Source: Corallococcus terminator (GTDB taxonomy: Bacteria > Myxococcota > Myxococcia > Myxococcales > Myxococcaceae). From it: a stretch of 33,079 nucleotides of DNA. Below, one piece after another: positions 18,856 through 25,372 of this stretch. The position numbers and the translations under genes are program-made. Below the pieces are notes generated by a model. It was not told the origin of the DNA. It ran no database searches and saw only the letters and a program-made list of their open reading frames with translations. Each line of letters begins with the position of its first letter. Positions within the stretch are counted from its first letter, which is position 1. The stretch spans positions 1-33,079 of the forward strand of contig NZ_RAVZ01000065.1 in assembly GCF_003611635.1 (NCBI RefSeq), in the 5' to 3' direction.

Positions 18856-20151
18856 TCAGCGCGCCACGGCGACGGAGGACGTGGGCGCCGTGGGCGGCAT
18901 GGCCTCCGGCGCGGGGGGCTCGTCGTCCATGGGCTGGGCCGCGTGTTCGGGCAGGAACGTGAGCAGCACCAACGCGGGGATGGCCGCCGCGGCGGTGAAG
19001 GCGAAGAACGTGGGCCAGCCCATCCACGTGGCCAGGTAGCCGGACACGGAGCCGATGAGCCGGTTGGCGATGGTGCCCATCGTGGACAGCAGCGCGTACT
19101 GCGTGGCGCTGAAGCTCTTGTGGCACAGCGACATCACGAAGGCGGCGAACGCCGTCACGCCCAGGCCCGTGCACACGTTGTCCACGGCGATGGCGCCCGC
19201 GAGCATCAGGTCGTTCTTGCCCACCAGCGCCAGTGCCAGGAAGGCCAGGTTGGTGAGGCCCTGCGCGGCGCCGAAGATGAAGAGCGCACGGCGCATGCTG
19301 AGCTTCACCATCAGCACGCCGCCCAGCAGGCCACCGCCGATGGTGGCCAGCATGCCCAGCGTCTTGCTGAGCGCGCCAATCTCCGTGTTGGAGAACCCGA
19401 GCTCGATGTAGAACGGCGTCACCATGCTGGCGGCGATGGCGTCCCCTAGCTTGTAGAGCACCAGGAACGCGAGCACGCCCAGCGCGTACTCGCGCCGGAA
19501 GTAGTCCACGAAGGGCTTCACCACCGCGTCCAGCAGGTTGCGCGGAGGCCGCACGCTCTGGGGCTCCGGCGCGATCAGGGTGGCCACCACGCCCACGCTC
19601 ATGAGCAGGCCCATCACGTAGTACGTCCTCGACCAGCCGAGCTGATCCGACAGGATGAACGCGAGTCCGCCCGCGACGAGCATGCCCATCCGGTAGCCGG
19701 TGACGTACATGGAGTTGCCCAGCCCGCGCTCCTCCAGGGTGAGGATGTCCGTGCGCCACGCGTCCGCGACGATGTCCTGGCTGGCGGACAGGAACGTCAC
19801 CACCACCGCCAGGCACGCCATCGCGATGGGGGAGTCCTTCGGGTTGACGAGCCCCATGGCGGCGATGGCGCCCATGAGCAGCACCTGCGTCAAGAGCATC
19901 CAGCCGCGCCGCCGGCCCAGGAAGGGCAGGGTGTAGCGGTCCATCAGCGGCGCCCACAGCACCTTGAACGTGTAGGGCAGCGCCACGAGGCTGAAGATGC
20001 CGATGGTCTTGAGGTTCACCCCCTCGTTCTTCATCCACGCGGACAGCGTGACGCCGGTCAGCCACAGGGGGAGGCCGGACGCGAAGCCGACGGCCATCAG
20101 GAGCCAGATGCGCCGGCTCTTCAAGACGGTGAGAAGCGAGGGATTGGTCAT
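18856..20151 (-). CDS. AmpG-like muropeptide permease (MFS)
   Basis: The 431-residue protein is a 12-helix major facilitator. It has the AmpG signatures FASGLPLWLTG, IGIFSLVALPYTFKVLWAPLMDR, LGRRRGWMLLTQ, SASQDIVADAWRTDIL and GYRMGMLVAGGLAF in order. AmpG proteins import anhydro-muropeptides (GlcNAc-anhydroMurNAc peptides) across the inner membrane for peptidoglycan recycling. In some bacteria they feed the signal that induces beta-lactamase. The C-terminus is a Pro/Ala-rich cytoplasmic tail of about 35 residues. The gap to pgm is 147 bp. No ampD or ampR is in the window, so the link to recycling rests on family membership only. Confidence 0.9.
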   Translation of the reverse strand: MTNPSLLTVLKSRRIWLLMAVGFASGLPLWLTGVTLSAWMKNEGVNLKTIGIFSLVALPYTFKVLWAPLMDRYTLPFLGRRRGWMLLTQVLLMGAIAAMGLVNPKDSPIAMACLAVVVTFLSASQDIVADAWRTDILTLEERGLGNSMYVTGYRMGMLVAGGLAFILSDQLGWSRTYYVMGLLMSVGVVATLIAPEPQSVRPPRNLLDAVVKPFVDYFRREYALGVLAFLVLYKLGDAIAASMVTPFYIELGFSNTEIGALSKTLGMLATIGGGLLGGVLMVKLSMRRALFIFGAAQGLTNLAFLALALVGKNDLMLAGAIAVDNVCTGLGVTAFAAFVMSLCHKSFSATQYALLSTMGTIANRLIGSVSGYLATWMGWPTFFAFTAAAAIPALVLLTFLPEHAAQPMDDEPPAPEAMPPTAPTSSVAVAR

Positions 20152-20265: not shown

Positions 20266-21240
20266 CTACGGCCCCAGCGCGGACACGTCCGGACAGGAGG
20301 ACGCGTTTCCCTCGGTGGGGTTGATGAAATCCCAGTTGCGCTGGAGGAAGGTGATTCGCGTCTGCGCGTCCCAGCACTCGGTGTATTTCAGGCCCTTCGC
20401 GTCGCCTTCCAGGATGGTCAGCACCAGCTTGCCCCGTCCCTCTGGTGTCCAGCGCGACACGATGTCCAGCGTCTCCAGGAGCCCGCCGGGCACCAGGTCC
20501 TGGCCGGGCAGCCGGAACGTCATCTCCCCCAGCCCCTCCGGCACCTGGCGCGACGCATAGCGCGTCAGGGGCAGCGTGGCCCCCGCGCCCGTGAAGAGCA
20601 GCTCCACGCTCGTGGGCAGCGCCTTCGTCTGGTAGCGGATGTCCAGCCGGTCCAACCCGTCCGCCTCGCGCGTGTCGAAGCCGTTCGCGCGGGCCTCCTT
20701 CAGGTCCAGCGCGAGCGCGCCCGTGCCCTTGCGGATGCCGCCGTCCGCCTTGAAGGTGCCGGGCAGGTACGTCCACCACCCGTCCTCGCCCGCGCCCCGG
20801 GGACGGAACTGGAGGCGGTAGGCGAAGTCGGCGCCCTGGCGCTCCATCACGAGGCGCAGCTCGTGCCCGGGATGGTCGTCCGCGGGGAAGGGGCCCCAGA
20901 TGCGGCGGTCGGTTTCGCGCGTGGTGGGCGCGACGCCGCGAAAAAGCTCCAGCAGGGTGAGCAGCGCGTCCACGCTGGCGTTGAACTGCGTGCCCACCTG
21001 ATAGGACTGGACCGCCAGCTCCGACGTGCCGCCCAGCACCTGAAGACCCAGCCGGTCCTCGCGGGTGCCGGTGCCCTGGCCGGAGCGTTTGGCGGAGTCC
21101 GGCAGCATGGCGGCCAGGTCCTCGCGTTGGGGCAGGGCGTTCTGGAACTCCAGGTCGTCGTTGGAGAAGTCGCCACCGCATGCGATCGCGAGGAGGCAGA
21201 GCAGGGCTGTGAGCAGGTTTCGCATCGCGTGCGCTCTCAT
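20266..21240 (-). CDS. Lipoprotein B of the sigma-caspase operon
   Basis: The 324-residue protein starts with a lipoprotein signal whose lipobox ends LAIAC (Cys21 from the ATG at 21240). The ATG overlaps the caspase stop as ATGA; an ATG at 21225 is the alternative. No named family is recognised. It is a paralogue of lipoprotein A (24263-25264): both share SGQG near the N-terminus, YQ then a hydrophobic segment, PTTxE..xxWGP, SRWT, and a C-terminal ECWD followed by one more Cys. The two mature cysteines (ECWD and SSCPD) could form a disulfide. The mature part looks beta-rich. It is the last gene of the operon and is followed by a hairpin. Confidence 0.85.
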   Translation of the reverse strand: MRAHAMRNLLTALLCLLAIACGGDFSNDDLEFQNALPQREDLAAMLPDSAKRSGQGTGTREDRLGLQVLGGTSELAVQSYQVGTQFNASVDALLTLLELFRGVAPTTRETDRRIWGPFPADDHPGHELRLVMERQGADFAYRLQFRPRGAGEDGWWTYLPGTFKADGGIRKGTGALALDLKEARANGFDTREADGLDRLDIRYQTKALPTSVELLFTGAGATLPLTRYASRQVPEGLGEMTFRLPGQDLVPGGLLETLDIVSRWTPEGRGKLVLTILEGDAKGLKYTECWDAQTRITFLQRNWDFINPTEGNASSCPDVSALGP

Positions 21241-22916
21241 GGCTCGTACGTGAGGAGCGCCGCCAGTTCCCAGTAGCCCAGGGACCGCTGCGCATCGACG
21301 GTGTATTGGAGGTACTGCGCCCGGCCCCGGGCGGTGAGGTGGAGGCGGCGCGTGAGCTGGAAGCGCGCGCCGGCCACCAGTCCCGGTGACACCATGGCGA
21401 AGCGCTGATCCGGGAACGCCGCGTCCTCGAACTGGCGGCCCAGGATGAGGTACGCCAGCCGAGCGCCCACGAACGGGGAGACGCGGCCCAGGGGCCACTC
21501 GGTGGTGAGGCTCGTTCCCAGGTTCACCACCGAGTACCGGTACGACGGCCCCGCGAGCGTGGGCAGCGCCAGCACACCCCGCGTGCCGCCCACGGAGGCA
21601 TCGAAGCCCCAGACCCAGTCGCGGCGGAAGTAGTCGTGCAGCTCGGCCTCCGCGCCGAACAGCGGCACGGAGAGGAAGAGCGACTGGCGCGTGGCCGCGT
21701 CGAAGAAGGACTGGTAGCCGCCCGTGAGGCCGAAGGCCCACCACGAATCCCGGCCCCGGCCCGCGCCCTTCACGGGGTCGTCGGAGAAGGGGGCGTCCTT
21801 GAGGCGCGGCTCCTCCAACACGGTGGTCCGGCCGCGAGCAATCTCCACGTCCCCGATGCGAAGCCGGTCGCTGAGCCGTCGCTTCACGCGGTAGGTGCCA
21901 GGGGCCAGGGCCACGCGGCGCTCCGTGTCCGCGCCCTTGTCCAGCTCCGCGACCACGAGGCCGCCTGGATCCACGAAGTAGTACGCACCCGCGGGCGCGC
22001 CGCCGGGCACCACGAGTCCCTCGGCGTTCGCGCGCAGGTCGGTGAGGACCAGGTCTCCGTTGCCCGCGAGGTCGTAGCTGAACGTGGGGTGCTGCGGGCC
22101 CGCGCTGCTGTCGGCGGTGTCCGCGACGGTGCGCGCGTAGGCGTGTGAATACGCTTCGAAGAGCGTCACGCGTCCGTCGCCGCTGCGGTCCGCGTCGCCC
22201 AGCAGGCCGCTCGTCAGGTGGTGGGAGAAGTAGCTGCCGCCCAGGGCATCCGACTCCTGCGAGTCCTCGTCCGCCGCGCTGGAGGTGAGGATGACGACGC
22301 CCCGGGCATCGCGCGCGGCGCCGGATTCCACGTCGAAGGCGGGGGCTTTACGAGCGCCCTTGGTCCGCGTGAGCGCGCCGGAGCGGCACGAGTCCAGGAT
22401 GGCGATGCGGATGTCGACGGGTGCCTCTGCCAGCCGGCGCTTGAGCGCGTCGAAGGCCAGCCGCGAGTCACCCAGTCGCAGGGCTCCGTCCTTCGCGTGA
22501 CCGGAGTAGTAGACGAACAGCGCGGTGCGCTCCCCGCGAGCCTGGGCCGCGCGTGCCCGTTGTTCCAGTTCCGACAGGGCGGAGAGGAAGTCCTTCGCGT
22601 CATCGTCGAGGAGGAGCTTCGCGTCGGACGCGGCCACGCCACCCAGTCGGGTGAGCAGGTCGTGCATCTTGCGCGCATCGTCGCGCGCGTAGCTCAGGGG
22701 GCGCGTGTCATTGCCCCCCGTGTCGTTGCCAGCGATGAGCGCGAAGCGGCGCAGCGTGTCCGCGTGCGCGGCGGTGGACAGCGATACGAACGCGAGCGCC
22801 AGTCCCAGGGCCCACGCGTGGGGCGGGGCGATGACGGTGCGCATCCGCGCCAGGACGCGAAGCCCCGCGAGCAGTGCCCGTTGCGGAGCGACACGCTTCA
22901 CGGGCAGGGTGCTCAT
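21237..22916 (-). CDS. Exported caspase-like protein with probable C-terminal outer-membrane barrel
   Basis: The protein has 559 residues from the ATG at 22916, which overlaps the anti-sigma stop as ATGA. A signal peptide ending AHA-DT (cleavage near residue 52) would export it; an ATG at 22844 would give a more standard 28-residue signal. Residues about 55-285 form a caspase (peptidase C14) domain with both catalytic residues: His140 in YYSGHAKDG and Cys177 in ILDSCRSG. A DADRSGDGRVTLFEA segment near 240 resembles a calcium loop. A PEGA-like beta domain follows at about 305-375. The last 165 residues alternate in the way of an outer-membrane barrel (GLTGGYQSF, VGARLAYLILG, VAGARFQLTRRLHLTARGRAQY). 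It should cleave after Arg, Lys or Asp in the periplasm if active; substrates are unknown. Confidence 0.88.
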   Translation of the reverse strand: MSTLPVKRVAPQRALLAGLRVLARMRTVIAPPHAWALGLALAFVSLSTAAHADTLRRFALIAGNDTGGNDTRPLSYARDDARKMHDLLTRLGGVAASDAKLLLDDDAKDFLSALSELEQRARAAQARGERTALFVYYSGHAKDGALRLGDSRLAFDALKRRLAEAPVDIRIAILDSCRSGALTRTKGARKAPAFDVESGAARDARGVVILTSSAADEDSQESDALGGSYFSHHLTSGLLGDADRSGDGRVTLFEAYSHAYARTVADTADSSAGPQHPTFSYDLAGNGDLVLTDLRANAEGLVVPGGAPAGAYYFVDPGGLVVAELDKGADTERRVALAPGTYRVKRRLSDRLRIGDVEIARGRTTVLEEPRLKDAPFSDDPVKGAGRGRDSWWAFGLTGGYQSFFDAATRQSLFLSVPLFGAEAELHDYFRRDWVWGFDASVGGTRGVLALPTLAGPSYRYSVVNLGTSLTTEWPLGRVSPFVGARLAYLILGRQFEDAAFPDQRFAMVSPGLVAGARFQLTRRLHLTARGRAQYLQYTVDAQRSLGYWELAALLTYEP

Positions 22917-23695
22917 GGCTTCAGCAGGATCCACTGCGTCTGCTCGCCCGCGACATCCAGCGGCGCCATGCGCGTGACATCCCGCCCCGCCGCCGCGAAG
23001 GACTTCCGCGCCGCAGCGCTCAGGGCATCCATCGACACGGGCGCCTCCGTCAGCAACAGCACCACACGCTCCGCCCCCGCTCCGGTGAACTCCACGCTCT
23101 CCGGCAACCAGTGCTGTCCCGCACCCGGCTCCACCGCGAGGCTGTCCCCCGACTCCGGATACAGCGGCGTCACCTCGCCCTGGGCATCCACCGACAGCGC
23201 GGCCACATAGCGGTGCGCCTCCGGCGTGTAACCCAGCCGCACGCGCTCACCGGGGCGCAGGGCTTCCGGTGCGTCCACGCTCGCCACCCGCTGCGGCTCC
23301 GCACCGCCACCGATGCGAAGCTCCGCGCTCGCGCCGCCCTTGAGCCGGTTGCCTGCCACGGGCCGGGACGCCCCGTCGTTCTCCAGCAGCGGACGCACCA
23401 GCACCAGCACGAACACGGAGGCCGCTACCAGCATCAGAGGTCTGGCCCACGCGGCGCGCGTCACGGGCTTCGCCGAAGCCTTGGACTGACGGGCCAGGGC
23501 CCGCTCCACGCCCGCCTCGAAGTGCTCGAAGGGCACCTCCGCCTCGAACGTGGTCTGCTGCTCCGACAAGGACCGGAGCACCGCGCCACATGCCTCGCAC
23601 GCCTCGGCATGCTCACGGGCGCGCAGGGCCTCCGGGGCAGGCAGGTCGCCGACGTGCAGGCGGCGCAATGTCCAGTTCGACTCGTGCGCGCTCAT
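22913..23695 (-). CDS. Zinc-finger anti-sigma factor with periplasmic DUF4384-like domain
   Basis: The 260-residue protein starts at 23695 with an ATGA overlap with the sigma stop. An N-terminal zinc-binding anti-sigma (zf-HC2/ZAS) motif is visible: His14, then His29-x3-Cys33-x2-Cys36. A single membrane helix lies at about 85-101. The periplasmic part (about 135-225) resembles DUF4384: LRPGERVRLGYTPEAHRYVAALSVD, GEVTPLYPESG, and HWLPESVEFTGAGAERVVLLL. DUF4384 often accompanies caspase-like proteins. The expected role is to hold the ECF sigma factor at the inner membrane and release it on a periplasmic signal. No site of regulated proteolysis can be assigned by eye. The open frame upstream to 24010 is not used. 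Confidence 0.88.
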   Translation of the reverse strand: MSAHESNWTLRRLHVGDLPAPEALRAREHAEACEACGAVLRSLSEQQTTFEAEVPFEHFEAGVERALARQSKASAKPVTRAAWARPLMLVAASVFVLVLVRPLLENDGASRPVAGNRLKGGASAELRIGGGAEPQRVASVDAPEALRPGERVRLGYTPEAHRYVAALSVDAQGEVTPLYPESGDSLAVEPGAGQHWLPESVEFTGAGAERVVLLLTEAPVSMDALSAAARKSFAAAGRDVTRMAPLDVAGEQTQWILLKP

Positions 23696-24234
23696 CGGAC
23701 GTTCAGCTCCTCTCCACCCAACTGTGCGAACTGTTCCAGCCGCTTGCGCACCGTGGGCACCGAGCGCCCCAGTACTGCGGCCACCTCTTCCAGCGTCATC
23801 CCGTCCACGTGGTAGTGGATGGCCGCCGCCTGCGTCTCCGCGTCCACCCGGGCCAGCAGCTTGCGCACCAGGTCGCGCGTCTCCATCGCCTCCGCCCCAC
23901 CGTGGCCCTCGGAGCGGGCCGCCTCGTCTCGGGCGAACCACCGCCGCCACGCCGCCCCTTCCGACCGGAGCTGGTTGAGGCAGTGGTGCGTGGCGATCTT
24001 CATCAACCACGTGAGCGGGGAGGCCTCCGCTCGGAACGAATCCCCGTGCACGAGCGCACGGGCGAAGACGTCCTGCATCGCGTCCTCGGCCCGGCTCGCA
24101 TCCTTCAGCAGGTAGCGGCAGCGCTCCCTCACGCTGCCGCCGTACTTCACATACAGGTCGCGCAGGACGGCCCGCCGGTCCTCGGAAGGACGGGGAGCTA
24201 CCACCTTCAGGGCCAGTGGGGTCGGTCCAGTCAC
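23692..24234 (-). CDS. ECF-family RNA polymerase sigma factor
   Basis: The 180-residue protein has the two ECF domains. Region 2 (about 25-92) contains DAMQDVFARAL (2.2, core binding) and TWLMKIATHHCLNQLR (2.3-2.4, -10 recognition). Region 4 (about 120-170) contains the helix-turn-helix MTLEEVAAVLGRSVPTVRKRLEQF (-35 recognition). The start is GTG at 24234 without a clear Shine-Dalgarno; it is 28 bp downstream of lipoprotein A. It is followed by its anti-sigma factor with an ATGA overlap. By analogy it should transcribe its own operon and a small regulon once released. The sigma subgroup cannot be assigned here. Confidence 0.93.
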   Translation of the reverse strand: MTGPTPLALKVVAPRPSEDRRAVLRDLYVKYGGSVRERCRYLLKDASRAEDAMQDVFARALVHGDSFRAEASPLTWLMKIATHHCLNQLRSEGAAWRRWFARDEAARSEGHGGAEAMETRDLVRKLLARVDAETQAAAIHYHVDGMTLEEVAAVLGRSVPTVRKRLEQFAQLGGEELNVR

Positions 24235-24262
24235 GCGCGGCTTGAGCCTACCGCGAGGAGGC

Positions 24263-25264
24263 TCAGAGCGACGAGTACACCGCCGCGTTGAATCCGCCGC
24301 AGGCCGCTTCCGCCTCGCCGTACCCCAGGCGCGGGTCCAGGCTGACGATGAAGTAGGTGCTCAGGAAGTTCGTGTCCCAGCACTCGCTCAGCGTGGCCTC
24401 GCCCTTCAGGTCGCCGCCCGTCACCTTGATGTCCGAGCGGCCCGCCCCCGTCGCAGTCCAGCGGCTCTTGATGCTCAGCTTCTCCAGCTTCGCGCGCAGC
24501 GGGTCCCCGTTGTCGATGTCCTTGGCCGACGCGAAATCGAACTCGCCGCCCGCCGTCGCGGACGCCTTGTAGCGGTAGTTCCCGTCCACGCGCTGTTGCG
24601 GGTCCTGCTCGTCGCGCACCTGGCGGAAGTCCGCTTCCACCGTGGCCTCCGCCGTGGCGCTCGGACGCGCGTAGCGAATCTCCACCGTGCCCACGTTCTC
24701 ATCGCCGTCCGGCAGGCTGTGCGACGCGTCCCAGTCGATGAACAGCTCGCCGGAGCCGAAGCCCTTCAGGCGCTCGCCGTTCGCGTCCACCGCCACCGTC
24801 TGCGTGCCGGACAGCACCGCCTTGAAGCCGCTGTCCGCGTCCGCCTTCGCCTTGCCCTCCAGCACCCAGGAGAACGACGCGTCCCCCGACTTCGTCACCG
24901 TCAGCCGCCACGTCGTGGGGCTCAGCGCGTCCGTGTGCGGACCCCACACCGCCTTGTTCTCCTCCAGCGTCGTCGGCGGATACTTGGCGATCTGCTCGAT
25001 GAGGTTGAGCACCCACAGCGTGCCGCCGTTGATGGACACCGTCGCGTTCACCGTCGCCTGGTAGTACTCGGCCTTCTGGCCCAGGCCGTACATCGCGGAC
25101 GGGCCGCTCGCCGTCAGGCCCTGGCCGCTCTCCTTCGGCGCCTTCACCTGCATCATCTCCTTGGAGGGCAGGCCGTCGCGGAACGTGTCCTCGTTCGTCT
25201 CGGCGTCGTTGCAACCGGCGGCGAACAGCAGGGAGGCGGCACACAGCAGGCTCTTGCGCAGCAT
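24263..25264 (-). CDS. Lipoprotein A of the sigma-caspase operon
   Basis: The 333-residue protein begins MLRKSLLCAASLLFAAGC, a lipoprotein signal with the lipidated cysteine at residue 18. It is a paralogue of lipoprotein B at the other end of the operon: they share FRDGLP/FQNALP, SGQG, YQ, PPTTLEENKAVWGP against APTTRETDRRIWGP, SRWT and SECWD with a last Cys near the C-terminus. This copy has a longer middle part. Family and function are unrecognised; a beta-rich extracytoplasmic fold is likely. AAAGGA lies about 10 bases before the ATG. It is the first gene of the operon, and the 208-bp gap upstream holds the presumed promoter. Confidence 0.87.
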   Translation of the reverse strand: MLRKSLLCAASLLFAAGCNDAETNEDTFRDGLPSKEMMQVKAPKESGQGLTASGPSAMYGLGQKAEYYQATVNATVSINGGTLWVLNLIEQIAKYPPTTLEENKAVWGPHTDALSPTTWRLTVTKSGDASFSWVLEGKAKADADSGFKAVLSGTQTVAVDANGERLKGFGSGELFIDWDASHSLPDGDENVGTVEIRYARPSATAEATVEADFRQVRDEQDPQQRVDGNYRYKASATAGGEFDFASAKDIDNGDPLRAKLEKLSIKSRWTATGAGRSDIKVTGGDLKGEATLSECWDTNFLSTYFIVSLDPRLGYGEAEAACGGFNAAVYSSL

Positions 25265-25372
25265 GGTGGGGTGTCCTTTCAGGGCCCGTCGTGCGGGCCG
25301 TGCGGCAGGGAATTCGCTCCTATGGACACAGGCCGGGCGAAAAACAGAAAAGGCGCTCGCTTGAGGCGAAAA

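Follow-up and report, generated by a model that had tools for sequence, protein, structure and literature searches.

The role of bacterial caspases is an old question that has mostly been discussed in terms of cell death. In Escherichia coli, the DegS-RseP/RseA-sigma-E pathway frees an extracytoplasmic function (ECF) sigma factor when its membrane anti-sigma factor is cut in the periplasm near the membrane. Studies on type III-E CRISPR systems reported experimentally that Csx29 cleaves Csx30, relieving an ECF-like sigma factor (PMC10028731). In another study, Asplund-Samuelsson et al. (2012; PMC3501461) reported sigma-70 genes in the operons of four of the five metacaspases of Myxococcus xanthus DK1622, the same structure in Anaeromyxobacter, Haliangium, Sorangium, Ralstonia, and Fibrobacter, and OmpA domains among the neighbours in 14 metacaspase operons. 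Here we analyzed a stretch of 33,079 nucleotides from Corallococcus terminator (RefSeq assembly GCF_003611635.1, contig NZ_RAVZ01000065.1, positions 1 to 33,079 of the forward strand; hereafter, the window). It carries a five-gene operon encoding a lipoprotein (LipoA), an ECF sigma factor, a membrane anti-sigma factor, an exported caspase with a barrel tail, and a second lipoprotein (LipoB). A preliminary description of this operon had stated that no system with such a layout was known; this claim is not supported, because sigma-70/metacaspase operons had been reported in the 2012 study.

We propose, with about an even chance of being right, that the operon encodes an envelope-signalling module in which the caspase would process itself and then cut its own anti-sigma factor at a K-G dipeptide in the periplasmic stalk, releasing the sigma factor. 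What is new here is the recurrence of this dipeptide in two partner proteins: across the two sets of loci surveyed below, K-G was found in the stalks of 81 of 83 anti-sigma factors, and [K/R]-G in the loop of all 52 sigma-linked caspases that have D-x-C at the catalytic cysteine (between Cys+8 and Cys+14, and exactly at Cys+9 in 48 of them). The features of the locus are as follows.

25324..25351, minus strand: bipartite promoter-like element TTTTCTGTTTT-N11-GTGTCC before lipoA, conserved in aligned upstream regions
24263..25264, minus strand: lipoA, lipoprotein (Cys18), 333 amino acids, matching no known family
23692..24234, minus strand: ECF sigma factor, GTG start, 180 amino acids; PF04542, PF08281, and TIGR02937 above cut-off
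22913..23695, minus strand: membrane anti-sigma factor, 260 amino acids, with H-x3-C-x2-C at 29-36, a transmembrane segment at 87-104, and a DUF4384-like part at 146-198
23336..23347, minus strand: anti-sigma stalk motif R117-L-K119-G120, 15 residues past the transmembrane segment; proposed cleavage site
21237..22916, minus strand: exported caspase with barrel tail, 559 amino acids; Peptidase_C14 (PF00656) 49.1 bits against a cut-off of 21.4
22029..22760, minus strand: caspase domain, residues 53-296 (His140, Cys177)
22353..22370, minus strand: caspase loop T183-R-T-K186-G-A188, at Cys+9; proposed self-processing site, with low predicted local distance difference test (pLDDT) score
21240..21743, minus strand: predicted eight-stranded OmpA-like outer-membrane barrel, residues 392-559 (AlphaFold2 and Foldseek)
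20266..21240, minus strand: lipoB, lipoprotein (Cys21), 324 amino acids, related to lipoA

The predicted architecture of the caspase would place its protease domain in the periplasm. The catalytic dyad, His140 and Cys177, lies at the positions given in the preliminary description and was found in 59 of 59 sequences with this region, the window's included; one partial sequence lacked the region. In the AlphaFold2 model (36 orthologs, mean pLDDT 79), the caspase domain is followed first by a small beta domain and then by eight long strands (residues 392-557), and residues 179-209, just past the catalytic cysteine, are poorly defined. The best whole-chain matches in Foldseek were OmpA (E 3.6e-8) and NspA (5.3e-8), with plant metacaspase 9 at 2.4e-5. 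Residues 52-296 aligned with caspase-7 (4hq0; Z 19.2, root-mean-square deviation 2.7, 194 aligned residues) and with plant metacaspase 4 (6w8s; Z 18.1), and the eight long antiparallel strands of the predicted model match solved barrels. In outer-membrane barrels, a C-terminal aromatic residue belongs to the insertion signal; the window's caspase ends in TYEP, and F, Y, or W is the last residue in 39 of 52 sigma-linked relatives. The protein has an export signal, as judged by eye and hydropathy, and its strands are even in number, which would put the barrel in the outer membrane and the caspase domain on the periplasmic side. Thus, the exported, barrel-tailed caspase with a periplasmic protease domain that had been suggested earlier is supported as a prediction.

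The sigma factor consists of Sigma-70 regions 2 and 4 and little else (Pfam and NCBIfam matches above cut-off). The anti-sigma factor has H-x3-C-x2-C near its N-terminus, one transmembrane segment, and a gene adjoining that of the sigma factor. Its H-x3-C-x2-C is invariant in the window's protein and in 19 of 19 aligned orthologs; among the anti-sigma factors of the wider survey, the strict form was found in 22 of 52 and C-x2-C in 48 of 52. The sigma regions and Peptidase_C14 scored above their Pfam cut-offs and, in the anti-sigma factor, zf-HC2 (13.5 bits, cut-off 22.2) and DUF4384 (21.7 bits, cut-off 27) below theirs. The top three DUF4384 matches in the window's genome (E 3.7e-4, 5.3e-4, and 0.027, all under the family cut-off) are anti-sigma factors encoded directly before caspases. 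By analogy with its family, the protein would span the inner membrane and hold the ECF sigma factor in the cytoplasm.

The core of sigma factor, anti-sigma factor, and barrel caspase is wider than the five-gene operon. The window's genome contains five C14 matches, four of which, the window's included, lie behind a visible ECF sigma factor and membrane anti-sigma factor; the sigma factors of the three other modules pass the Pfam region-2 cut-off, and the fifth C14 gene is preceded by the remnant of an anti-sigma gene where its contig begins. C14 was found in at least 97 of the 117 genomes of the phylum. The survey comprised, among the matches listed, 80 PF00656 matches with flanks (set 1) and a further 38 (set 2); the 30 best-scoring loci, which have short flanks (L064-L093), and one match overlapping another were left out of the counts. 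An ECF sigma gene lay one gene upstream of the caspase in 52 of 80 loci in set 1 and 31 of 38 in set 2 (83/118 in total), and in set 1 it was on the same strand and ended 746-1642 nucleotides upstream. The His-Cys dyad was present in 80 of 80 set-1 caspases. A sigma gene accompanied 49 of 58 exported caspases with a tail of at least 200 residues versus 3 of 22 of the rest (Fisher p 5.8e-9), and the tails of sigma-linked caspases are homologous, with hhalign probabilities of 99.1-99.9 between three groups. Distant sigma factors may have escaped these counts because the profile used to detect them drew on the window family and three paralogs. Furthermore, sigma and caspase distances were correlated (Mantel r 0.963, n = 52; 0.784 in 22 divergent modules, where the maximum of 999 permutations was 0.504), and the strong correlation of sigma, anti-sigma, and caspase distances indicates their joint inheritance.

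Another large class of barrel caspases (e.g., L113, L120, and L163 of the survey and L061 of the window's own genome) has A-x-C, not D-x-C, before the catalytic cysteine. Its loop is different and longer (GIK-S/A-G), and its anti-sigma factors mostly read G-x-K-G. This A-x-C type makes up 26 of 52 sigma-linked caspases in set 1 and 5 of 31 in set 2. The window's genome also holds a sixth, caspase-like exported gene (L193; G000:C221; 1088-3, minus strand, and 886 onwards, plus strand), in which GHGK and DACDS were recognized by eye and no Pfam match was found; it is divergent to genes for a sigma region-4 protein and an anti-sigma-like protein.

The caspase and the anti-sigma factor share a short motif. 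In set 1, K-G occurred within 40 residues of the transmembrane core in 50 of 52 anti-sigma factors, whereas the composition of the remaining parts of these proteins gave an expectation of 2.6. It was found in none of 10 caspase-free, anti-sigma-like zf-HC2 proteins encoded beside other sigma factors in the same genome, a loose control because these proteins are not homologous in the periplasmic part. The 10 were picked by eye from 21 matches as having a sigma factor alongside and at least 40 residues after the transmembrane segment, and other matches were dropped for having no sigma factor alongside or too short a tail; two candidates that had been set aside, L193 (with the caspase-like gene next door) and L179 (kinase-like), also lack K-G. 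Within the window family, all 59 sequences that cover the caspase loop read R-x-K-G there, and the anti-sigma factors read R-x-K-G in 51 of 56, the others being G-x-K-G (two), R-I-K-S-G (one), and fragments (two). Examples of caspase and anti-sigma sites from the same module are TRMKGG/TRMKGS, TRLKGL/TRLKGG, and IHSKGA/LHAKGS, and in the genome's own paralog C351, R-G replaces K-G at both sites, as judged by eye.

Pair tests were performed with 25 of the 26 D-x-C modules of set 1, L131 being left out for its lack of a stalk K-G. At P3 and P2, loop and stalk from one module resembled each other more than they did after shuffling, with p 1e-4 for the 25 modules and p 0.003 for 18 divergent ones. 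For P3:P3, z was 4.09, a value reached by 0.035% of 14,256 background caspase/anti-sigma column pairs, a control that keeps relatedness; P2:P2 was weaker (z 2.03, 3.8% of background). In all 51 modules, the P3 z was 3.80, and a table of basic and non-basic P3 residues (29, 10, 2, 10) gave p 6e-4, with p 0.08 in set 2 alone. Collectively, K-G is a robust shared feature, and loop and stalk covary to a moderate degree. The earlier suggestion that the anti-sigma factor may be a substrate of the caspase gains support from the presence of K-G in both places.

Classical caspases are matured in the loop that follows the catalytic cysteine. Since one sequence stands both in the activation loop of a protease and in the stalk of its partner, the simplest account would be that the protease cuts both. 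In the proposed order of events, a signal at the outer membrane or via the lipoproteins would activate the caspase. It would then cleave twice, first in its own loop behind K186 (R-T-K-G) and afterwards in the anti-sigma stalk behind K119 (R-L-K-G), at a point 15 residues from the membrane. RseA-type anti-sigma factors receive a site-1 cut close to the membrane from a dedicated periplasmic protease, and RseP completes their release as site-2 protease. The short stub left by a cut at K119 would suit intramembrane proteolysis, as site-2 proteases accept stubs of this kind, so that the sigma factor would be freed. The freed sigma factor may then transcribe from the element upstream of lipoA, leading to renewed expression of the operon. 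Of this scheme, the anatomy, the conservation, and the shared motif come from the data, and the activity, the cleavage, the order of events, the signal, and the autoregulation are inferred. Lys at P1 as the specificity of the caspase is suggested by the loop motif only. A broader proposal, to which we give slightly less than an even chance, is that caspase-controlled sigma switches of this kind operate across the phylum: outer-membrane caspases would be dedicated site-1 proteases, x-R-x-K-G, cut between K and G, would be used in cis for maturation and in trans for sigma release, several modules would work in each cell, and the window's lipoproteins would likely be a sensor or a brake. With five C14 genes and one caspase-like gene, this genome does have several modules side by side.

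Several observations weigh against cleavage of the anti-sigma factor by its own caspase. The loop [K/R]-G at Cys+8 to +14 was also found in caspases for which no sigma factor was found (12 of 28 in set 1, 7 of 7 in set 2), many of which belong to the same barrel class, and the loop motif marks this caspase class and not sigma linkage. Loops of the A-x-C type lack K-G in 22 of 26 and 5 of 5 cases, yet the stalk K-G is kept in 25 of 26 and 5 of 5. In set 2 alone, the P3:P3 z was 1.54, under the threshold of z > 2 fixed beforehand, and the P2 z was 0.18. Nine of the 58 exported long-tailed caspases had no sigma factor found, two of them at contig starts, one of which has an anti-sigma-like frame upstream, and the divergent L193 module has an anti-sigma factor lacking K-G. 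Moreover, the counts are not independent because the modules are related, and K-G may be the structural start of the periplasmic domain.

The last point belongs to an alternative in which the caspase is the output of the system. The sigma factor would be freed by some other protease and the caspase would remodel the envelope or promote lysis (e.g., in development or predation), the loop K-G serving self-processing only and the stalk K-G starting a periplasmic fold. The caspase gene follows the anti-sigma gene and would be expressed as part of the regulon, the 2012 study leaned to cell death (PMC3501461), and both the K-G of A-x-C-type anti-sigma factors, kept despite differing loops, and the loop motif of caspases without a sigma neighbour fit this alternative. 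However, it does not lead one to expect that K-G would be missing from the 10 caspase-free anti-sigma factors of the same genome, which are not homologous in the periplasmic part, or that stalk and loop would covary at P3, and we regard it as unlikely, although a serious contender. The same match of motifs would arise if the stalk were a bait, with R-x-K-G of the anti-sigma factor occupying the active site as a pseudosubstrate, silencing the caspase, and bridging the two membranes until a change in envelope spacing or a ligand broke the link and so acted on the sigma factor. In a pseudosubstrate, one would normally look for a change at the scissile position, whereas P1 Lys and P1' Gly are kept in stalk and loop alike, which makes this arrangement improbable in our view. 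The presence of the same motif in both proteins would also be explained by a third protease with a preference for Lys or Arg that cuts loop and stalk as a common activator, but P3 and, weakly, P2 vary together by module within multi-module genomes, a pattern that need not arise with one common protease, and the operon contains no such protease gene; we consider this explanation very improbable. If the anti-sigma factor is indeed cut by its own caspase, a large class of caspases in bacteria would function in signalling, as outer-membrane proteases wired to transcription and with a defined substrate residue, and an outer-membrane protease would be added to the ways in which an ECF sigma factor is known to be freed.

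The five-gene operon itself is well conserved. Its genes lie on one strand with ATGA overlaps at the sigma/anti-sigma, anti-sigma/caspase, and caspase/lipoB junctions, as first described and as the coordinates confirm, and lipoA is separated from the sigma gene by a 28-nucleotide gap. At the measurable junctions of relatives, a 4-nucleotide overlap was found in 47 of 53, 41 of 51, and 24 of 46 cases, in order from sigma to lipoB. A caspase-seeded scan, with gene presence assessed by tblastn, gave 59 related loci, mostly from Myxococcaceae and Anaeromyxobacter. All five genes were present in 44 of these. In 11 of the remaining 15, a contig end cuts at the missing gene, and in four a gene was not found despite room (lipoA in L037, L039, and L047; lipoA, anti-sigma, and lipoB in L059). 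A sigma-seeded search yielded 52 matches at E <=1e-30 in 46 of the 59 family genomes; among the 30 of these matches with loci, the window included, the caspase was found in 28 of 30, the anti-sigma factor in 30 of 30, and lipoA in 26 of 30. These results indicate that the five-gene arrangement is not due to chance, and they do not bear out a situation in which most relatives lack the caspase or the lipoproteins, which the preliminary description had named as evidence against its view. Of the two sigma-seeded loci without a detected caspase, L224 reaches a contig end inside the anti-sigma gene, and in L216 the place expected for the caspase start, after the stop codon of the anti-sigma gene, is taken by a tandem repeat tract beginning at about position 2820. 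A complete operon with 57-76% identity is also present in L010 (BNCN01000006.1), a record titled Comamonas sp. KCTC 72670; this label looks wrong, and the source is probably a myxobacterium.

LipoA and LipoB fall under one profile, in agreement with the earlier view of them as paralogs, and neither matched a family in Pfam or NCBIfam. The predicted fold of LipoB is all-beta following a helical start (pLDDT 86.6). A search of the lipoprotein model against the PDB gave no match at E <=0.001, and a second fold comparison, which is not decisive, placed an OspA mutant (6kk9) best (Z 8.6, root-mean-square deviation 4.4, 159 aligned residues), followed by OspA mutants and porins with Z between 6 and 8. 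A third copy of the family stands alone elsewhere in the genome (L228; G000:C402:4412-5359), and no sigma factor or caspase was recognized by eye in the 3-kb stretch around it. The other core modules in the window's genome lack members of this family, and the lipoproteins are accordingly not part of the general sigma/caspase module. Because they are kept in the window family and missing from the genome's other core modules, they appear to be a sensor or brake that a single branch has acquired. At one hairpin, LipoA reads R-L-K-G and LipoB reads R-K-G; [K/R]-G-x-G was found in 18 of 49 LipoA and 35 of 44 LipoB sequences (partial and oddly long rows excluded). The idea that the lipoproteins are extra caspase substrates was dropped because only G-x-G is constant there.

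The element before lipoA shows few changes across 24 aligned upstream regions and has one exact copy and one site at two mismatches in the 10.35-Mb genome, which is consistent with a putative private, self-reinforcing promoter. A search for the exact pattern in 40 genomes found it in the window's own genome only, a result that says little because the first T of the pattern is too strict, several orthologs reading CTTTCTG. Alignment of the regions upstream of the sigma gene in 16 A-x-C-type modules gave no nameable element. On the 3' side of lipoB, the Pfam and NCBIfam scan identified an AmpG-type transporter and phosphoglucomutase. The AmpG-type muropeptide transporter gene (18856-20151, minus strand) lies directly downstream of lipoB on the same strand in Corallococcus. 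It was considered as an operon member and left out because its position is not kept: several Myxococcus loci have only a 36-37% match there, and none was found in the Archangium loci L019 and L020. On the other side, a nucleotidyltransferase-like gene (PF14907/PF09970; 25473-26330, plus strand) and the next gene, to 27018, are divergent and upstream of lipoA, and this pair keeps its place in L001-L022.

Compared to described systems, the locus exhibits several distinct features. As far as its main text goes, the 2012 study mentions no anti-sigma factor, DUF4384, or beta-barrel (PMC3501461); the topology, the loop and stalk motif, and the proposed mechanism are added here. In the open-licence literature, outside which most subscription papers lie, none was found that names this topology or motif, couples DUF4384 with an anti-sigma factor, or couples peptidase C14 with an ECF sigma factor and an anti-sigma factor. 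PADLOC anti-phage models revealed no relevant system, the only match being that of the sigma factor to mad1 (14.2 bits over 23 residues). Caspase systems associated with EACC1 and EACC2 resemble the locus in that they contain a caspase and, in many EACC2 neighbourhoods, an ECF sigma gene (PMC8195603). The window's caspase has a resemblance to NF047832 (caspase, EACC1-associated type) but scored 63.2 bits against it, under the cut-off of 140, and no EACC domain or DUF1822 was found among the Pfam and NCBIfam matches of the operon proteins. Caspase-type CHAT proteins are likewise conserved near the sigma factors of ECF54, which were proposed to act without an anti-sigma factor (PMC8999054), whereas an anti-sigma factor is present in our modules. 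The type III-E Csx29/Csx30/CASP-sigma system is alike in that a caspase-type protease cuts the inhibitor of an ECF-like sigma factor, experimentally there and as a proposal here; in that system, the protease is an RNA-activated TPR-CHAT protein working with Cas7-11, whereas here it is an exported barrel caspase with a membrane anti-sigma factor (PMC10028731). No Cas or CHAT family was found among the Pfam and NCBIfam matches of the nine window proteins scanned. Finally, DegS is a serine protease of the inner membrane, whereas the candidate site-1 protease proposed here would be a cysteine protease of the outer membrane that is encoded in the same operon as the sigma factor it may release.

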